Positions 10,803 through 45,554 of a stretch of 64,000 nt of DNA are shown here, in pieces. A program made the translations under genes and the position numbers. Numbering within the stretch: the stretch's first letter is position 1; every line of letters starts with the position of its first letter. The DNA lies in assembly GCF_014204795.1 (NCBI RefSeq), contig NZ_JACHMB010000001.1:4836001-4900000 (forward strand). Direction: 5' to 3'. A model generated the notes under the pieces. It had not been told where the DNA came from and did not search any database. It saw only the letters and a list, made by a program, of their open reading frames with translations. Origin of the DNA: Nonomuraea jabiensis (GTDB lineage Bacteria > Actinomycetota > Actinomycetes > Streptosporangiales > Streptosporangiaceae).

Positions 10803-11669
10803 ATGGGAATCTTGAGGCGCAACCTGACGGCCTACGGGTTCCTCTGCGCGGCCCTGTTCTGTTTCGCGGTGTTCGCCTGGTATCCGATGGTCAGGGAGTT
10901 CATTCTGAGCTTCCAGAAGACCGACCTGATCAACCCGCCCACCTGGGTGGGGCTGGACAACTTCAAGGCGGCGGTCCAGGACCCGGCCTTCGGCGAGGCC
11001 TGGCTGAACACCGTGGAGTTCACGCTGCTCGCGCTGCTGTGCGGCTACGCCGTGCCGTTCGTCGTCGCGCTCGTCCTCAACGAGCTGCGCCACGCCCGGG
11101 CCTACCTGCGGTTCGTCGTCTACCTGCCGGTCATGCTGCCGCCGATCGTGGCGGTGCTGCTGTTCCGGTGGTTCTACGATCCGGGGCCCGGGCTGTTCAA
11201 CCAGGTCCTGGACTTCTTCCACCTGCCGCCGCTGGCCTGGCTGGACTCGTCGTCGACCGCCCTGATCTCCCTGGTCCTCGTCTCGACCTGGATGAACATG
11301 GGCAGCGCGACGCTGATCTACCTGGCGGCGCTGCAGAACATCCCGCCCGAGCTGTACGAGGCCGCCGAGCTCGACGGGGCCGGGATCTTCAAGCGGATCA
11401 GGCACGTCACGATCCCGCAGACCCGGCTGATCCTGCTGCTCATGCTGATGCTGCAGATCGTGGCGACCATGCAGGTGTTCATCGAGCCGTACATGCTGAC
11501 CGGCGGCGGCCCGGAGAACGCGACCGTGAGCGTCGCGTACCTGATGTACCAGTTCGCGTTCTCGCAGATGAACTACGGCCAGGCGGGCGCGCTGGGCATG
11601 CTGCTCATGCTCGTGCTCCTCGTCTTCGCGGCCTTCCAGCTCAGGACGACCCGTGAGGACAAAGCATGA
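10803..11669 (+). CDS. Sugar ABC transporter permease (MalF type)
   Basis: A 288-residue six-helix membrane protein. The binding-protein-dependent permease signature is the cytoplasmic EAA loop, ELYEAAELDGAGIFKRIRHVTIPQ (about residues 185-208), which docks on the ATPase. It begins 5 bp after the binding-protein gene and overlaps the next permease by ATGA, so the genes are translationally coupled. No ATP-binding subunit is encoded nearby; in streptomycetes such CUT1 importers share the MsiK ATPase. Confidence 0.93.
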   Translation: MGILRRNLTAYGFLCAALFCFAVFAWYPMVREFILSFQKTDLINPPTWVGLDNFKAAVQDPAFGEAWLNTVEFTLLALLCGYAVPFVVALVLNELRHARAYLRFVVYLPVMLPPIVAVLLFRWFYDPGPGLFNQVLDFFHLPPLAWLDSSSTALISLVLVSTWMNMGSATLIYLAALQNIPPELYEAAELDGAGIFKRIRHVTIPQTRLILLLMLMLQIVATMQVFIEPYMLTGGGPENATVSVAYLMYQFAFSQMNYGQAGALGMLLMLVLLVFAAFQLRTTREDKA

Positions 11670-12715
11670 TCGCCCGTGAGGGAGCGCCGTCGCCTGGACT
11701 GAGGAGCGGCGGGAGCGAAGCGACCAGAGTGACGAGGGAAGGCGACGGCTCCACGGCGACCGAGCCGCCTCCACGGAGTGGAGGCGACAAGCAGAGCGCG
11801 CGTACCACTACCGGACGGCGACGCGGTACGAAGAGAGCACCCAAGCCGATCCAGGTGCAGTTCCGCACGATCGTCTCGCCGCACCAGCTCAACAGCAGGT
11901 GGGGCCGGCGGATCTACTGGCTGGTCCTGATCGCCGTCGTCGTGGTCTTCACGCTGGCCTTCGTCTTCCCGCTCTACTGGATGATCACCGGCGCCATGAA
12001 GACGCCGGAGGAGATCGCCCAGATGCCGCCGTCGCTCGTCCCGGCCGACCCGACGCTGGAGGCGTTCTTCGAGGCGTGGGACCTGTTCGACATCGGCACG
12101 CTGCTGGCCAACACCGCGTACTACGCGCTGGGCGCGTGGCTGTTCTCCATGGCGGTGGACGTCACGGCGGCGTACGCGCTGTCGAAGCTGCGGCCGATGT
12201 TCGGCAACGTGATCCTCGGGGCGATGCTGGCCACGCTGATGATCCCGCCCATGGTCATCCTCATCCCGCTCTACGTCACGATCGTGGACCTGGGGCTGCT
12301 CAACAACGCCTGGGGCCTGTGGTTCCCGGCGGCGGCGAACGGCTTCAACATCTTCCTGCTCAAGCGGTTCTTCGACTCGATCCCGCGGGAGCTGATCGAG
12401 GCGGCGCAGATCGACGGCGCGGGCCCGCTGCGGGTGCTCTGGTCGGTCGTGCTGCCGGTCTCCAGGCCGATCCTGGGCGTGGTCTCCATCTTCACGATCG
12501 TCACCGCGTTCAAGGACTTCGTCCTGCCGCTGCTGGTCATGACCGACAGCGAGAAGATGACGATCAGCGTGGGCCTGTCGCAGACGGCGGGCGCGGTGAC
12601 CCAGAACCAGATCATGGGCGGTCTGGTCATCGCGAGCATTCCCATGATCATCGTCTTCTTCGTCTTCCAACGACACATCATGGCGGGGCTCACCGCCGGA
12701 AGCATCAAGGGATAA
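11666..12715 (+). CDS. Sugar ABC transporter permease (MalG type) with repeat-derived N-terminal extension
   Basis: A 349-residue protein, some 60 residues longer than usual MalG-type permeases. The permease core starts near residue 60 (VQFRTIVSPHQL, first helix about 80-100) and carries the EAA loop ELIEAAQIDGAGPLRVLWSVVLPV. Most of residues 5-50 are a low-complexity cytosolic extension, and residues 7-28 (APSPGLRSGG and following) are encoded by a 67-bp terminal-inverted-repeat element that recurs at 43462-43528 in another gene. The start overlaps the previous gene by 4 bp (ATGA), which supports it. A later start could remove the extension, but no better start was seen. Confidence 0.88.
   Translation: MIAREGAPSPGLRSGGSEATRVTREGDGSTATEPPPRSGGDKQSARTTTGRRRGTKRAPKPIQVQFRTIVSPHQLNSRWGRRIYWLVLIAVVVVFTLAFVFPLYWMITGAMKTPEEIAQMPPSLVPADPTLEAFFEAWDLFDIGTLLANTAYYALGAWLFSMAVDVTAAYALSKLRPMFGNVILGAMLATLMIPPMVILIPLYVTIVDLGLLNNAWGLWFPAAANGFNIFLLKRFFDSIPRELIEAAQIDGAGPLRVLWSVVLPVSRPILGVVSIFTIVTAFKDFVLPLLVMTDSEKMTISVGLSQTAGAVTQNQIMGGLVIASIPMIIVFFVFQRHIMAGLTAGSIKG
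11682..11748 (+). repeat. 67-bp TIR element, copy A, inside a permease gene
   Basis: It matches the reverse complement of 43462-43528 at 64 of 67 positions. The outer part carries the inverted repeats ccgtcgcc (11687-11694) and ggcgacgg (11741-11748), giving a potential hairpin. Weaker similarity continues to about 11768. It lies wholly inside the permease coding region and is read as APSPGLRSGGSEATR and on through TREGDG without interrupting the frame. Confidence 0.88.
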
Positions 12716-41138: not shown

Positions 41139-42454
41139 TCCTTCGCGACGCTGTGCGCGTCCTGGTGGCCAACTGGGACGGCAGCTACACGGTCCCCTCC
41201 CGGCGCCTGTACCCGCACCAATGGAGCTGGGACTCCGCCTTCATCGCGATCGGCAACGCCCGGTGGTCGCCGCGACGGGCCAGGATCGAGCTGCTCTCCC
41301 TGTTCGGCGCGCAGTGGCGCGACGGCAGGGTGCCGCACATCGTCTTCAACCCCGCGGTGCCCGAAGGGGCCTACTTCCCCGGGCCCGAGTTCTGGCAGGC
41401 GTACGCGCCGGGAGGCTCCGCGACCTCCGGGATCGTCCAGCCGCCGGTCCACGCGCTGGCCGCGTGGAAGACGCACCTGGCCGAGCCCGACCCGGCGTTC
41501 CTGCGCCGGATCTACCCCCGGCTCGTGGCGCAGCAGGAGTTCCTGCGCGCGGCCAGGCGCTCCCCTGAGGGGCTGATCTCGATCGTGCACCCCTGGGAGT
41601 CGGGCATGGACAACAGCCCGGCCTGGGACCTGCCGCTGCGGGCCGTGCGGCCCGACACCGTGGGCTTCGTCCGCCGCGACCTCGCCACGGTCAGCGCCGA
41701 CGAGCGGCCCACCGACCGCGACTACGAGCGTTACGTCTCCCTCGCCCGTGCCTACCGCGACTCCGCCTACCGCAGTCCGGGGGAGTTCCAGGTCGAGTGC
41801 CCCCTGTTCAACGCCGCGTACGGCGTGGCCGAGTCGACGCTGGCCCGGATCGCGCAGGTGTGCGGCCTCGACCCCGAGCCGCACGAGCGGGAGGCGGCCG
41901 CGATCACCGGCGCCATGGTCGAGCACCTCTTCGACGGCGGCCTCTTCCAGGCCCGCGACGTGCGCACGGGCCGGCTGCTCTGCTCCAGCAGCACTGCCGG
42001 GCTGACCCCGCTCATGCTCCCGCACCTGCCGGACGAGGTCGCCGAGGCGGTGATCGGCACCGCGCTCGACCGGTTCGCTTTCAAGGACGGGGCGCTGCCC
42101 AGCTACTCTCCCGCGGCGCTCGACTTCGACCCGGCCCGCTACTGGCGCGGCCCGAGCTGGATCAACCTCACCTGGCTCGTCTGGCAGGGGCTCAAGGACC
42201 GCCGCCCCGACCTGGCCGCCCTGGTCGCCGAAGGGATGGTCAACTCGGTCGCGCGATCGGGCTTCCGCGAGTACTTCGACCCCTTCACCCTGCACGGCCA
42301 CGGCAGCCACGACTTCAGCTGGTCAGCCGCCCTCCTCCTCGACGTGGTCGCTGAGCACGGCCTGGACGGTCTGCCGGCGTCTGGCCGCGAGGTCGGACAG
42401 GAACTCGGGGGCCTCGGCGAAGCCGACGACGTCGGTGATCACGTGCTGGCGTAG
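41135..42454 (+). CDS. Probable glucosylglycerate hydrolase (GH63-type)
   Basis: A 439-residue (alpha/alpha)6-barrel hydrolase without signal peptide. YPHQWSWDSAFIAIG (26-40), HPWESGMDNSPAWD with probable acid Asp159, RGPSWINLTWLVWQGL, and FREYFDP with probable base Glu379 match the compact GH63 enzymes of the mycobacterial glucosylglycerate hydrolase (GgH) type, which also have about 440-450 residues. The gpgS gene 2 kb away makes glucosylglycerate phosphate, supporting the call; mannosylglycerate remains possible. ATGA overlap with the isomerase gene. The last 40 or so residues are coded antisense to the convergent dehydrogenase gene and are not family-like. Confidence 0.78.
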   Translation: MILRDAVRVLVANWDGSYTVPSRRLYPHQWSWDSAFIAIGNARWSPRRARIELLSLFGAQWRDGRVPHIVFNPAVPEGAYFPGPEFWQAYAPGGSATSGIVQPPVHALAAWKTHLAEPDPAFLRRIYPRLVAQQEFLRAARRSPEGLISIVHPWESGMDNSPAWDLPLRAVRPDTVGFVRRDLATVSADERPTDRDYERYVSLARAYRDSAYRSPGEFQVECPLFNAAYGVAESTLARIAQVCGLDPEPHEREAAAITGAMVEHLFDGGLFQARDVRTGRLLCSSSTAGLTPLMLPHLPDEVAEAVIGTALDRFAFKDGALPSYSPAALDFDPARYWRGPSWINLTWLVWQGLKDRRPDLAALVAEGMVNSVARSGFREYFDPFTLHGHGSHDFSWSAALLLDVVAEHGLDGLPASGREVGQELGGLGEADDVGDHVLA

Positions 42455-43426
42455 CCGCCGTCCGTACCGCCTGAGCAGGGCGATCGTCTCGTGCGAGAGC
42501 CGCTCCCGGTCCCAGGAATGCGCCAGGCCGCGCGGCACCCGGCCGATCTGGGCGCAGCGCAGCGTCAGCCCGTTGTGGTGGAACTCCTCGCCCAGCCGCA
42601 CCTCCTGCGCGCCCTGGGTGTAGAAGGCGAGGTCCACCAGCGTGCCCTGGGGGCGCAGCATCCTGAGCCCGAGGGCCAGCGCCCTGGTCTGGCCGCGGCA
42701 CTGGAACACCACGTCGGCGCCCCGGTCGTCGCGGCCGTGCCGCCAGCGGCGCTTCAGGTCCACGGCGGGATCCTCGTCGGCGGCCAGGACGTTCGCGCCG
42801 AGCGCCGCGGCGATCGCCAGCCTGGCCGGGGTCTCGTCCACGACCACGACCTCGGCCGCGTCGCAGGCCATGGCGAAGCACGCCGTCAGCAGCCCCACCA
42901 CGCCCGCTCCCACGACCGCGACCCGCCGCCCGCGCACGCCGTCACCGAGCCGCTGCACGGCCGGGCCGTACAGGTCGTGCGCGGCGTGCAGGAGGCCGTT
43001 GGCGCAGATCGGGCCCATGTGGGCGACGTAGACGCCGAGCATGGGGTCGAGGTCGTCCGGCAGCTCGACGAACCGGTCGGCCATCGGGTCCGCCACGTAC
43101 GCCGTGCGATGTCCGTAACACATCGCCACCAGCGCACCCTCGCTCACGGCCCGTGTCCGCGTCTCGACCACCAGGCCGACCTGCATGTAGCCGATGCCGC
43201 GCACCGGGTAGGCGATCGACGGCGTGCCCTCGGAGAACAGCCCGAGCGCCGGGTCCCAGGTCGAGGACAGGTACGGGTTGGTGCCCTTGACGTAGGTCAG
43301 CTCGGTCCCGGCCGAGACCCCGCTGTGGGTGGTGGCCAGCATGAACCCACCCTCGGGGATGCCCGGCAACTTCTCCTCCACCAGGCGAACCTCACCCGGT
43401 GCCTCGATACTGAGCACAGTGCCCAT
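42323..43426 (-). CDS. MDR-family dehydrogenase B of the ROK cluster
   Basis: A 367-residue paralogue of the dehydrogenase at 39322 (shared SGVSAGTELT, GTNPYL, LGEEFHHN) with Rossmann motif VVGAGVVGLLTACFA. It begins 4 bp after the Gfo/Idh gene, so the two form an operon running towards the hydrolase gene, which it overlaps tail to tail by 132 bp. Its ribosome-binding site (GGAG in acggagtgaggcc) lies in the last codons of the Gfo/Idh gene, just after the repeat element. Confidence 0.87.
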   Translation of the reverse strand: MGTVLSIEAPGEVRLVEEKLPGIPEGGFMLATTHSGVSAGTELTYVKGTNPYLSSTWDPALGLFSEGTPSIAYPVRGIGYMQVGLVVETRTRAVSEGALVAMCYGHRTAYVADPMADRFVELPDDLDPMLGVYVAHMGPICANGLLHAAHDLYGPAVQRLGDGVRGRRVAVVGAGVVGLLTACFAMACDAAEVVVVDETPARLAIAAALGANVLAADEDPAVDLKRRWRHGRDDRGADVVFQCRGQTRALALGLRMLRPQGTLVDLAFYTQGAQEVRLGEEFHHNGLTLRCAQIGRVPRGLAHSWDRERLSHETIALLRRYGRRLRQHVITDVVGFAEAPEFLSDLAARRRQTVQAVLSDHVEEEGG

Positions 43427-43430
43427 GGCC

Positions 43431-44474
43431 TCACTCCGTTCGGCGGCTCGGTCGCTGGGGTCCGTCGCCTTCCCTCGTCGCTCTGGTCGCTGCGCTCCCG
43501 TCGCTCCTCAGTCCAGGCGACGGCGCTCTCTCGCTCTCATCAAGCACCACCGGCCTCCGTTCCGCCGCGGACTGTGCGAGGGCCAGCGCCAGGCGATGAG
43601 TGCGTAGCGCCTCCCCGTACGGTACGCGTACGTCGGCGTCCTTACCCTGCACCGCGTTGATGAACTCCCGGTCGACGCGCGTCTTCGCCCGGCCGTCGTC
43701 CTCGATCACGCGCTGGCCGTCCACCAGCAGCCGCGTCTCGCTGAGCTCCAGCGCCAGGCCGTCGGCGCACACCTCCAGGCCCACCCGGTGCTTCTGGGCC
43801 AGCAGGCAGGAGGTGGCCAGCAGCCCGGCCGCGCCGTCGGCGAAGCGCAGGACCGCCGCCGTGGCCCGATCCACCTCGCCGTCGCTGTGGTTGGCGGCGG
43901 GGACGGCGTGCACCATCGACACCTCGCCCACCAGGACGCGGGCGAGGTCCAGCACGTGGACCGCCTGCTCGACGATCTGGCCGCCCGACATGCTCGGGTT
44001 CAGCCACCAGGCGACCGGCGGCACCTTGTCCAGCCAGTGGCCCAGGGCGAGCCGTACGGGGCGCTCCGCGAGCAGGTCACGGGCGTGTCCGAGGATGTCG
44101 AGATAACGCCAGTGATGGCCGACCGCGGTCGGCAGCGATCTTCGCTCGATTTCGGACGCGATGATTTCTGCGGTTTGGAGGTCGAGCGAAAGGGGTTTTT
44201 CCACAAAAAACGGTAGATTACACGACAGAACATCATGTTCGGGGGTGCCGTGCGCGAAAGGAGGCACACAGACGTAAACAGCATCGAGACCGCCGGCGCT
44301 GAGTAGGTCGGCATGGTCACCATAGGCGGGGGCGCCGTGCCGGGAGGCCAGAGCCTCGGCCCTGTGGAGATCAATGTCGGCGATTCCCGCGATCGTGACA
44401 TCTGGGAAGCCGGACAGTACATCTGCGTGGCGAGCGGCGACATTTCCGGCACCGATGATGCCGACGCGGGTCAT
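43431..44474 (-). CDS. Gfo/Idh/MocA family oxidoreductase with repeat-derived C-terminus
   Basis: A 347-residue NAD(P)-dependent oxidoreductase. Rossmann motif VGIIGAGNVAARH right after the start, FVEKPLSLD (EKP motif) and the C-terminal alpha/beta domain with GGQIVEQAVHVLDLAR. I place the start at ATG 44474 because the family opens there. The final 30 residues, from about APSPGLRSDG to RRTE, lie beyond the normal family end and are coded by the 67-bp element also found in the permease at 11666. Probably oxidises or reduces a sugar ring carbon. Confidence 0.87.
   Translation of the reverse strand: MTRVGIIGAGNVAARHADVLSGFPDVTIAGIADIDLHRAEALASRHGAPAYGDHADLLSAGGLDAVYVCVPPFAHGTPEHDVLSCNLPFFVEKPLSLDLQTAEIIASEIERRSLPTAVGHHWRYLDILGHARDLLAERPVRLALGHWLDKVPPVAWWLNPSMSGGQIVEQAVHVLDLARVLVGEVSMVHAVPAANHSDGEVDRATAAVLRFADGAAGLLATSCLLAQKHRVGLEVCADGLALELSETRLLVDGQRVIEDDGRAKTRVDREFINAVQGKDADVRVPYGEALRTHRLALALAQSAAERRPVVLDESERAPSPGLRSDGSAATRATREGDGPQRPSRRTE
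43462..43528 (-). repeat. 67-bp TIR element, copy B, inside the Gfo/Idh gene
   Basis: Reverse complement of 11682-11748 with 3 mismatches. Terminal inverted repeats ccgtcgcc and ggcgacgg are intact. It is read in the same protein frame as copy A, adding a Ser/Arg-rich tail to the oxidoreductase. Confidence 0.88.
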
Positions 44475-44582
44475 TGGGGACACATTCCGGCATATGCCAC
44501 ATCTGATCGCCATCAAACAAAGAGGTTCAGAGGCGCATAGATCGGGCAGAAGTCGTGACCTCGTGAGATCGGGGCTTACTGC

Positions 44583-45554
44583 ATGGAGAGAAACCTGCGC
44601 GCCTTGGCCAGAATCCAGGAATGGTACGGTCCGCACTCGAGCACGGCAGCCGAGTGGCCGGTCGACGCCCTGATGCTGGCCAAGGGATCCACCACGGTAA
44701 GTGTCATCCTACCTGCTCGTAACGAAGAAAGCACAGTGGGTGACATCGTCCGTGTGATCCGCCGTGACCTCGTCGAACGGGTTCCACTCGTAGACGAGAT
44801 CCTCGTCGTCGACTCCAACTCGACCGACGCCACCGCCGAACGCGCCCGCGAGGCGGGCGCCCGCGTGGTGGCGCAGAACCAGGTGCTCTCCCACCTGCCG
44901 CCCTTGACGGGCAAGGGGGAGGCGCTGTGGAAGGGGCTGGCCGCCTCAAGGGGCGACATCGTCGTGTTCGTGGACGCCGACCTGCTCGACTTCGGCGCCC
45001 ATTTCGTGTCCGGCCTGGTGGGGCCGCTGCTGGTGGACAGTGACATCAGCTTCGTCAAGGCGACCTACGAACGTCCGTTCACGGGCGAGGACGGCGTGGT
45101 TCGCCGCGCCGCGGGTGGCCGGGTGACCGAGCTGGTCGCCCGACCCTTGATCAACATGTTCTGGCCCGAGCTGGCCGGGTTCGCCCAGCCGCTCGGCGGC
45201 GAGTACGCGGCCAGGCGCGAGGTCCTGGAGCAGGTGCCGTTCGTCACCGAGTACGGCGTGGAGTTCGGCCTCCTCGTCGACCTGCTCCAGCTCGTCGGCC
45301 TGGACGCGATGGCCCAGGTGGACCTGGGCAGCCGTACGCACACGCACCAGTCGATGAGCGCGCTCGGCCGGATGGCCGGGCAGATCATGCTCACCGCCTG
45401 GTCCCGCCTGGAGCGCCAGGGGCGCGTACTGGCGGCTCAGCGGCCCGCGCACACGATGCTGCAGTTCGGCATCGACGGGGCGGACCTGGTGGACGTGGCC
45501 GTGGCGGAGCGACCTCCGCTCGCCTCCCTCGTACAAGAGGAGGATGTGGCATGA
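44583..45554 (+). CDS. gpgS: Glucosyl-3-phosphoglycerate synthase
   Basis: A 323-residue GT81 glycosyltransferase with GT-A fold: SVILPARNEESTVGDIV, VDSNSTDATAE, GKGEALWKGL and the DADL metal motif, then PLGGEYAARR and ELLVDLLQL-like helices, as in mycobacterial GpgS. It joins glucose from a nucleotide sugar to 3-phosphoglycerate, the first step to glucosylglycerate, a compatible solute and precursor of methylglucose polysaccharides. No glucosyl-3-phosphoglycerate phosphatase is encoded here. It overlaps the GT4 gene by 4 bp. Confidence 0.92.
   Translation: MERNLRALARIQEWYGPHSSTAAEWPVDALMLAKGSTTVSVILPARNEESTVGDIVRVIRRDLVERVPLVDEILVVDSNSTDATAERAREAGARVVAQNQVLSHLPPLTGKGEALWKGLAASRGDIVVFVDADLLDFGAHFVSGLVGPLLVDSDISFVKATYERPFTGEDGVVRRAAGGRVTELVARPLINMFWPELAGFAQPLGGEYAARREVLEQVPFVTEYGVEFGLLVDLLQLVGLDAMAQVDLGSRTHTHQSMSALGRMAGQIMLTAWSRLERQGRVLAAQRPAHTMLQFGIDGADLVDVAVAERPPLASLVQEEDVA

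Follow-up and report, generated by a model that had tools for sequence, protein, structure and literature searches.

The 64-kb stretch of the Nonomuraea jabiensis genome analysed here (hereafter the window) carries two copies of a short hairpin-forming repeat, one between two genes for sugar permeases and the other between genes for an oxidoreductase and a dehydrogenase. The initial annotation had noted them as 67-bp sequences, at 11682-11748 on the plus strand and 43462-43528 on the minus strand, that agree at 64 of 67 bases, and direct comparison bore out this identity. The 67-mers are the core of a larger unit of approximately 105-117 bp, which in copy 1 runs from about 11676 to 11792 (+) and in copy 2 from about 43534 to 43424 (-). 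A scan of the 64-kb window found no third copy at 30 or more matches to the 42-base core. The features of the two loci are as follows.

10803-11669, plus strand: upstream ABC-transporter permease (BPD_transp_1), from its open reading frame (ORF) and a domain match.
11666-11669, plus strand: native ATGA, shared by the stop codon of the upstream and the start codon of the downstream permease; the 20 orthologues read have ATGA or GTGA.
11666-12715, plus strand: downstream permease (BPD_transp_1), whose frame is open from the native ATG on and includes the element, from its ORF, a domain match and orthologues.
11676-11792, plus strand: element copy 1, a full unit ending ...GGAGGC-GACAAGC, which starts 6 nt past the native ATGA and is read through as an N-terminal extension.
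11682-11748, plus strand: the core first noted, with stem A arms at 11687-11694 and 11741-11748, from the sequence and structure prediction.
11767-11785, plus strand: stem B of copy 1, GCCTCCAC-GGA-GTGGAGGC, from the sequence and the fold of a sister copy.
43431-44636, minus strand: upstream Gfo/Idh/MocA oxidoreductase, 34 residues longer via the element, from its ORF, a domain match and orthologues.
43424-43534, minus strand: element copy 2, GCGAGAGAGCG...GAGGCC-ATG, whose ATG starts the ORF of the downstream dehydrogenase, from the sequence and orthologues.
42323-43426, minus strand: downstream zinc-type dehydrogenase (ADH_zinc_N), which begins at the element ATG (MGTVLSI), from its ORF, a domain match and orthologues.

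The 8-bp inverted repeat of the initial annotation is perfect in copy 1, where it reads CCGTCGCC/GGCGACGG at 11687-11694 / 11741-11748, but it is not terminal on the left, the left arm beginning five bases inside the 67-mer. As had also been proposed, the element is open in the same frame in both hosts (APSPGLRSxGSxATRxTREGDG), at the N-terminus of the permease ORF 11666-12715 and at the C-terminus of the Gfo/Idh ORF 43431-44636. A Shine-Dalgarno-like GGAGG lies in the 3' arm of stem B of copy 1, opposite its complement in the 5' arm.

The two window copies belong to a dispersed family. In the 13.17-Mb window genome a 91-base query, with 40 of 61 first-look candidates scored, gave 26 matches at E<=1e-7, and a covariance model (R1) gave 25 strong copies at E<=5e-13 and 8 weaker ones up to E 5e-4, so that the copy search suggested at the outset returned far more than two copies and far more than chance would give. 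Across 54 Nonomuraea genomes, among which the window genome is labelled G000 and the others G002, G041, G054 and so on, the element was present in 39, with at least one R1 match at E<=1e-6 and 1 to 44 matches each. After removal of matches below 30 bits and of duplicates from an initial 171, 146 distinct copies remained at 119 loci, which group into 74 clusters of independent sites. A search of plasmid and phage collections with one copy as query (blastn, distant mode) gave no match.

More than one unit was present at 21 of the 119 loci, with a spacing between neighbours of 104-120 bp, and in G013 four tandem units of equal score follow one another at 116 bp. The tandem spacing is 2 mod 3 in 13 of the 21 arrays (the unlisted inner units of three arrays being taken as 116, 114 and 110 bp), which is what a relay ORF would need and is suggestive only. 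At G000:C1:3494034 there is one unit, against two tandem units at the matching site of the closest relative, G041 (C1:8278481 and 8278600), a repeat-number polymorphism of the kind exploited in typing by mycobacterial interspersed repetitive units (MIRUs) and variable-number tandem repeats (MIRU-VNTR). Partial forms also occur: at G000:C1:12639877-12639910 (L021 7478-7511) only the first 34 bases of the element match before other sequence follows, which may be a truncation or the end of something larger, and in Nonomuraea basaltis (L180, L183, L216, L274) full units are joined to half-units made of the 3' part (GGCGGCGGCAT..GAGGC-ATGA), recalling short MIRU types.

Aligned across the window genome, the copies give the consensus GCGAGGGAGCGCCGnnGCC-TGGACTGAGGAGCGnnGGGAGCGnAGCGACCnGAGCGACGAGGGAA-GGCnnCGGC...GCGACCGAG-CC-GCCTCnnCGGAGnnGAGGC-CATGA(A/G)CA, with ...GAGGC-CATGA as the typical end; copy 1 of the window reads ACAA (11787-11790) in place of the terminal ATGA. 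RNAalifold on 30 copies predicted 22 pairs, of which 9 keep pairing through double changes, with only 3 of 660 cells broken. Counted over 129 non-redundant copies, the cells of stem A comprise 952 Watson-Crick, 65 G-T and 3 A-C combinations of 1029, those of the outer helix 704, 37 and 7 of 766, those of the inner helix 737, 17 and 4 of 763, and stem B as drawn 705, 23 and 28 of 903; the outermost pair of stem B, the source of 20 of those 28 A-C cells, is probably spurious. Stems A and B combined have 1531 Watson-Crick cells, against 1304 (standard deviation 9) when columns were shuffled. Since the shuffled columns already give 152 G-T against 98 A-C, part of the G-T excess reflects composition.

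The apical part of the hairpin, GG-GA-GC-GNA-GC-GA-CC, consists of 2 bp, a tandem GA/GA, a further 2 bp and a triloop GNA. As a DNA mini-hairpin, the 7-mer GCGAAGC is known to be extraordinarily stable. High mutual information was found for the stem pairs and for columns that mark subtypes. Near the apical loop, consensus positions 31 and 47 covary as a pair that is not Watson-Crick (C.A in 87 and A.G in 36 of 128 sequences). Because the shorter subtype by eye has no CTGANGA, this hammerhead-like motif was dropped, and a strand bias of wobble pairs was set aside as proof of an RNA: it is clear in stem A (65:3), weaker or muddled in stem B, and at 3 versus 1 too sparse to use in the Kribbella-type elements described below.

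We compared four orthologous junctions, classing the alleles by eye and including in each count the genome or filled genomes from which the junction was taken. Empty and filled alleles were found at all four. Three of the empty sites are stop/start overlaps of the form DTGA (D = A, G or T) and the fourth is an ATGA start in an 8-nt overlap, and the element starts 0-6 nt after the DTGA. At the two window sites most of the orthologues read are without the element, and neither host protein carries the extension in all its orthologues, a result that leaves the apparent mobility of a dispersed, hairpin-forming family, as originally suggested, standing.

At the junction of window copy 1, between the two sugar permeases, a full unit is present in G000 and G066, a short form in G016 and a doubtful one in G055; none was recognised in 17 of 21, and the native sequence is an ATGA or GTGA stop/start overlap. 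The genomes closest by this gene, G041 (98%), G054 (96%) and G044 (94%), are without the element, G041 having a faint element-like stretch. By eye the insert is in frame relative to G054, with 64 versus 25 residues before the shared PIQV. At the junction of window copy 2, full units are present in G000 and G054, short forms in G044 and G016, and doubtful ones in G055, G022, G010 and G057, and none was recognised in 13 of 21, including G041, whose flanking genes are 97-98% identical. The empty allele of G041 reads GTGCTGGATGAGTAGTGTCC, the oxidoreductase ending VVLDE and the dehydrogenase starting MSSVLSI at an ATGA in the 8-nt overlap; in the filled allele of G000 the oxidoreductase continues for 34 residues after VVLDE (by eye, against G041) and the dehydrogenase starts at the element ATG with MGTVLSI. 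Both host proteins are thus lengthened by the element, as the initial annotation had proposed.

The third junction, between genes for an ABC ATPase and a MacB/FtsX permease, is filled in G000, G041 and G002 (the last with two units), with shortened forms in G054, G016 and G044, possible remnants in G051 and G022, and none recognised in 13 of 21. Its empty alleles (for example G007, G008 and G063) are single GTGA or ATGA overlaps, and the filled alleles of G000 and G041 read GCGTGA-GGCC-GCGAGGG...GAGGCCATGA-ACACGG. For the fourth junction the sample, which is not random, comprised 20 of the 48 places found together with five filled ones; at least one full unit is present in 8 of 25, 3 are shortened, 2 doubtful and 12 empty with CAGTGA. 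Five of the eight filled alleles begin directly at CAGTGA|GCGAGGG, and the subtype differs between species (G021/G060 versus G041 versus G010), for which repeated insertion at one site would be the simplest reading. At junctions 3 and 4 a DTGA stands on both sides of the element, as a duplication or as part of the element. In the shortened forms it is often the 3' part, including stem B and CATGA, that survives, as would be expected if the start signal is in use.

Coding frames around the 119 loci were scored with a codon model trained on the window, which left many loci unscored. The terminal position of the last copy is ATG in 70 loci, mostly as CATGA preceded by GAGG, and for these the downstream coding lies in the ATG frame in 39, in other frames in 7, on the opposite strand in 8, and is unclear in 16; the ATG frame was hence the one used in 39 of the 46 scorable ATG loci and in 21 of 24 when counted per independent site. 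With one locus taken per site (42 with ATG) the corresponding numbers are 21 in frame, 3 in another frame, 7 opposite and 11 unclear, and in the window genome alone (16 ATG loci) they are 9, 1, 2 and 4.

The neighbouring genes mostly run in the direction of the element, upstream in 55 of 59 scorable loci (32 of 36 per site) and downstream in 66 of 82 (37 of 48 per site). A second sample, 40 Nonomuraea cores taken from named records and scored with a simple gene caller other than the first, cores near an edge being skipped, showed co-orientation of the upstream gene in 28 of 36 and of the downstream gene in 28 of 34. In 74 of the 119 loci an upstream ORF of the same orientation extends to the region of the element, and it stops before the element in 42 of these, inside it in 23, at the last TGA, TAA or TAG in 6, and reads through in 3. 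The upstream ORFs enter in phases of 19, 10 and 2 of 31, and because all three phases are used no one peptide is conserved; a function of the element peptide at the protein level was rejected because of these mixed phases, and the in-frame peptide is a by-product.

The element is not confined to Nonomuraea. In a scan of named genomes the core occurred, among the matches listed, in Kribbella, Virgisporangium, Thermocatellispora, Actinomadura, Actinoallomurus, Sinosporangium, Herbidospora and Nonomuraea, and R1 matched in 18 of 394 genomes of the class, 17 of the 18 belonging to the same family. In Kribbella most of the genes flanking the core are on the strand opposite to it (33 of 37 upstream, 26 of 37 downstream), and the element, read in gene direction, ends GGAGGCCCC-(A/G)TGA. 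In 29 of 41 Kribbella-type cores (39 loci, 2 of them Actinomadura) a start triplet stands directly after CC, and the downstream coding frame agrees with this triplet in 15, differs from it in none, is opposite in 1 and unclear in 13; the other 12 have no start triplet directly after CC and were left unscored, 8 of them having ATGA there by eye. A DTGA lies in the 50-nt zone before the element in 25 of the 29, a count made without a control. At Kribbella loci such as L249, L270 and L283 the core opposite to the host genes is surrounded by inverted TCATGGGGC/GCCCCATGA with DTGA on both sides. One core thus serves in either orientation, at DTGA starts in both cases, and since the conserved strand is antisense to the Kribbella genes we infer a role of the shared hairpin in mobility and not in the host mRNA.

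Taken with the copy number, the empty and filled alleles, the start-codon frame, the orientation bias, the covariation, the tandem arrays and the shortened relics that we observe, the Nonomuraea element is very probably a non-autonomous, MIRU-like mobile element of approximately 105-117 bp that targets stop/start junctions and donates a start codon. Insertion would take place at, or a few bases after, a DTGA shared by the stop of one gene and the start of the next. The downstream gene would then start at the element's own ATG, and the upstream gene would end just before the element or extend into it, sometimes to the terminal TGA; the -4 overlap could be rebuilt, ribosomes would re-initiate at the element ATG, and expression should be little disturbed. 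The mobilising machinery may recognise the conserved hairpin, perhaps in single-stranded form, and the element would be moved by an enzyme acting in trans.

Several points weigh against this interpretation of a junction-targeting, start-donating element. No mobilising enzyme was found when the counts of Y1_Tnp and RVT_1 were compared across genomes, and the sites shared by distant species could be old insertions with conversion and loss. The loci fetched were mostly the best-scoring matches and not a random sample; the terminal ATG is absent in 49 of the 119 (ATA in 26, another triplet in 23), and the coding is unclear downstream in 37 and upstream in 60. Only 30 of the 119 loci and 16 of the 74 independent sites have a DTGA within 14 nt to the left of the element (control windows, 290 of 3294 or 8.8%). 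An ORF from the left DTGA ends at the terminal TGA in 13 of the 30, not clearly more than the one third or so that chance would give, and with 13 of 30 only, a relay ORF was rejected as a general rule. Translation from the element ATG is itself something that we infer from coding statistics.

If the element behaves as proposed, landing on a stop/start overlap and bringing a replacement start signal would give a parasite a low-harm way into operons, and N- and C-terminal extensions of proteins in these genera may be derived from the element and not functional.

Among other explanations, an element of the repetitive extragenic palindromic (REP) or REPIN type, moved by a transposase of the Y1 (HUH) class like the REP-associated tyrosine transposases (RAYTs), is unlikely. 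The short hairpin, the orientation-specific insertion beside a tetranucleotide and the tandem arrays would all fit it, and the check for a REP-type transposase proposed in the initial annotation did find that Y1_Tnp counts rise moderately with element counts (Spearman 0.40, p 0.003), but Y1_Tnp was undetected in 11 of the 39 carriers, one of them with 17 copies, and four genomes with Y1_Tnp are without the element. The unrelated RVT_1 correlates as well (0.44), and the trend may reflect a general load of mobile elements. Passages of PMC3733652 describe REP hairpins as bearing a GTAG or CGTC tag at one end, whereas by eye no such tag was seen at the hairpin ends in a 23-sequence alignment. As movers, neither Y1_Tnp nor RVT_1 is convincing, the two being undetected in 11 and 10 of the 39 carriers respectively and both undetected in five, one of which has 17 copies.

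A distinctly improbable explanation is that the repeat is not mobile and is a structured cis-regulatory RNA leader, attenuator- or riboswitch-like, upstream of genes. Covarying stems, the position at gene starts, the Shine-Dalgarno-like sequence in stem B and the predominance of G-T over A-C in stem A would be expected of a structured transcript, but the G-T excess is weaker outside stem A (stem B having 23 G-T and 28 A-C), and no Rfam match was found in the window or in seven loci. The host genes, moreover, differ in kind (six proteins at three junctions), presence varies at the same gene between genomes approximately 98% identical in their flanks, more than one tandem unit stands at 21 of 119 loci with four in G013, and the Kribbella elements are antisense to the genes.

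The protein-embedded model of the initial annotation, a Rickettsia-type palindromic element lying in frame inside proteins with its peptide kept or tolerated, is extremely improbable, since the shared frame of the two window copies and the one phase common to 19 of 31 upstream ORFs stand against 12 of 31 ORFs that enter in two other phases, against most scorable copies lying at gene-gene junctions with the ATG as start, and against upstream ORFs that end before the element in 42 of 74 cases and read through it in 3.

Having set these explanations beside the mobile, start-donating element, we compared the latter with known systems. Rickettsia palindromic elements insert in frame within ORFs with a conserved frame, and the present element resembles them as a palindromic repeat translatable as part of host proteins; it differs in being translated only incidentally, at gene ends and in no one conserved frame. 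Miniature inverted-repeat transposable elements (MITEs), which are marked by terminal inverted repeats and target duplication, are likewise small, non-autonomous and dispersed, whereas the inverted arms of the Nonomuraea form are internal rather than terminal, and no transposase partner was found for it among Y1_Tnp and RVT_1. With REP elements and REPINs it shares short hairpins that are dispersed, sometimes tandem and presumably non-autonomous, with G-T pairs in the stems, and differs in that no GTAG/CGTC tag was seen, in lying at start codons rather than extragenically, and in having no clear tie to Y1 genes.

The closest likeness is with MIRUs, one basis of tuberculosis strain typing. With a MIRU core pattern, matches were found in 12 of 394 genomes of the class, all of one genus; one copy immediately precedes a gene, the product of which matches RegX3 (2oqr, E 7.5e-143). 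In 24 of 26 distinct MIRU loci an ORF of at least 100 codons (or running to the end of the stretch) starts within 110 nt downstream. MIRUs are credited to Supply et al. 1997, according to passages of PMC12548453 and PMC4473831, and in the former they are described as apparently mobile and inserted at start codons, with the ORF of the unit coupled at -4 nt. A passage of PMC4473831 places them between ORFs of the same orientation, with small ORFs overlapping their neighbours and without dyad symmetry, and PMC4213456, in the part consulted, gives regX3 as a known MIRU site and restricts the senX3-regX3 MIRUs to M. leprae and the M. tuberculosis complex.

The Nonomuraea element and the MIRUs are both short repeats, dispersed and in tandem, lying between co-oriented genes, apparently mobile and at start codons; in both a terminal (A/G)TGA can rebuild the -4 overlap, and a small ORF may span the unit. 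Both contain the 11-nt core GAGCGNAGCGA, which was part of the pattern by which the MIRU loci were picked, and both alignments fold to the same apical hairpin, the 24 aligned MIRU units giving 2 bp-GA/GA-2 bp-GNA with 2 of 8 predicted pairs kept through double changes. They differ in the sequence outside the core, in length (approximately 105-117 bp against tandem periods of 51-55 bp in the MIRUs found), in the strong covarying stems of the Nonomuraea element, where the passage of PMC4473831 gives MIRUs no dyad symmetry, and in the occurrence of the former in Nonomuraea and other genera. When 26 of the 30 MIRU loci were searched with R1, no match was significant, the best at a MIRU place having E=0.16, and therefore we call the element MIRU-like and not a MIRU; sequence homology is not proven. 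The open-access literature searched held no description of a MIRU-like element outside mycobacteria, which is a weak negative.

Two further sequences were seen in this connection. In the MIRU-bearing genus, away from a MIRU, L342 2881-2939 resembles stem B and the tail of the Nonomuraea element (CGCC..GCGGAGC-GAGGCCA; E 0.093), and G416, of the same class (family f6, genus g50) and of another genus in the family that contains the MIRU-bearing one, has three weak R1 matches at E 4e-6 to 8e-6.

The behaviour of the element is that of mycobacterial MIRUs and not that of the Rickettsia elements. Tentatively, and with somewhat less than even confidence, we suggest that MIRUs are one branch of an actinobacterial superfamily of elements that target start codons, share one single-strand hairpin (2 bp-GA/GA-2 bp-GNA) and are moved by an undiscovered enzyme recognising DTGA junctions; such elements would face in the sense direction in Nonomuraea and mycobacteria and antisense in Kribbella, the start codon coming from whichever end meets the gene. 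The same insertion behaviour, seen in other genera of soil actinomycetes together with covariation in the structure and cleanly empty sites, would make the movement of MIRUs testable outside pathogens.
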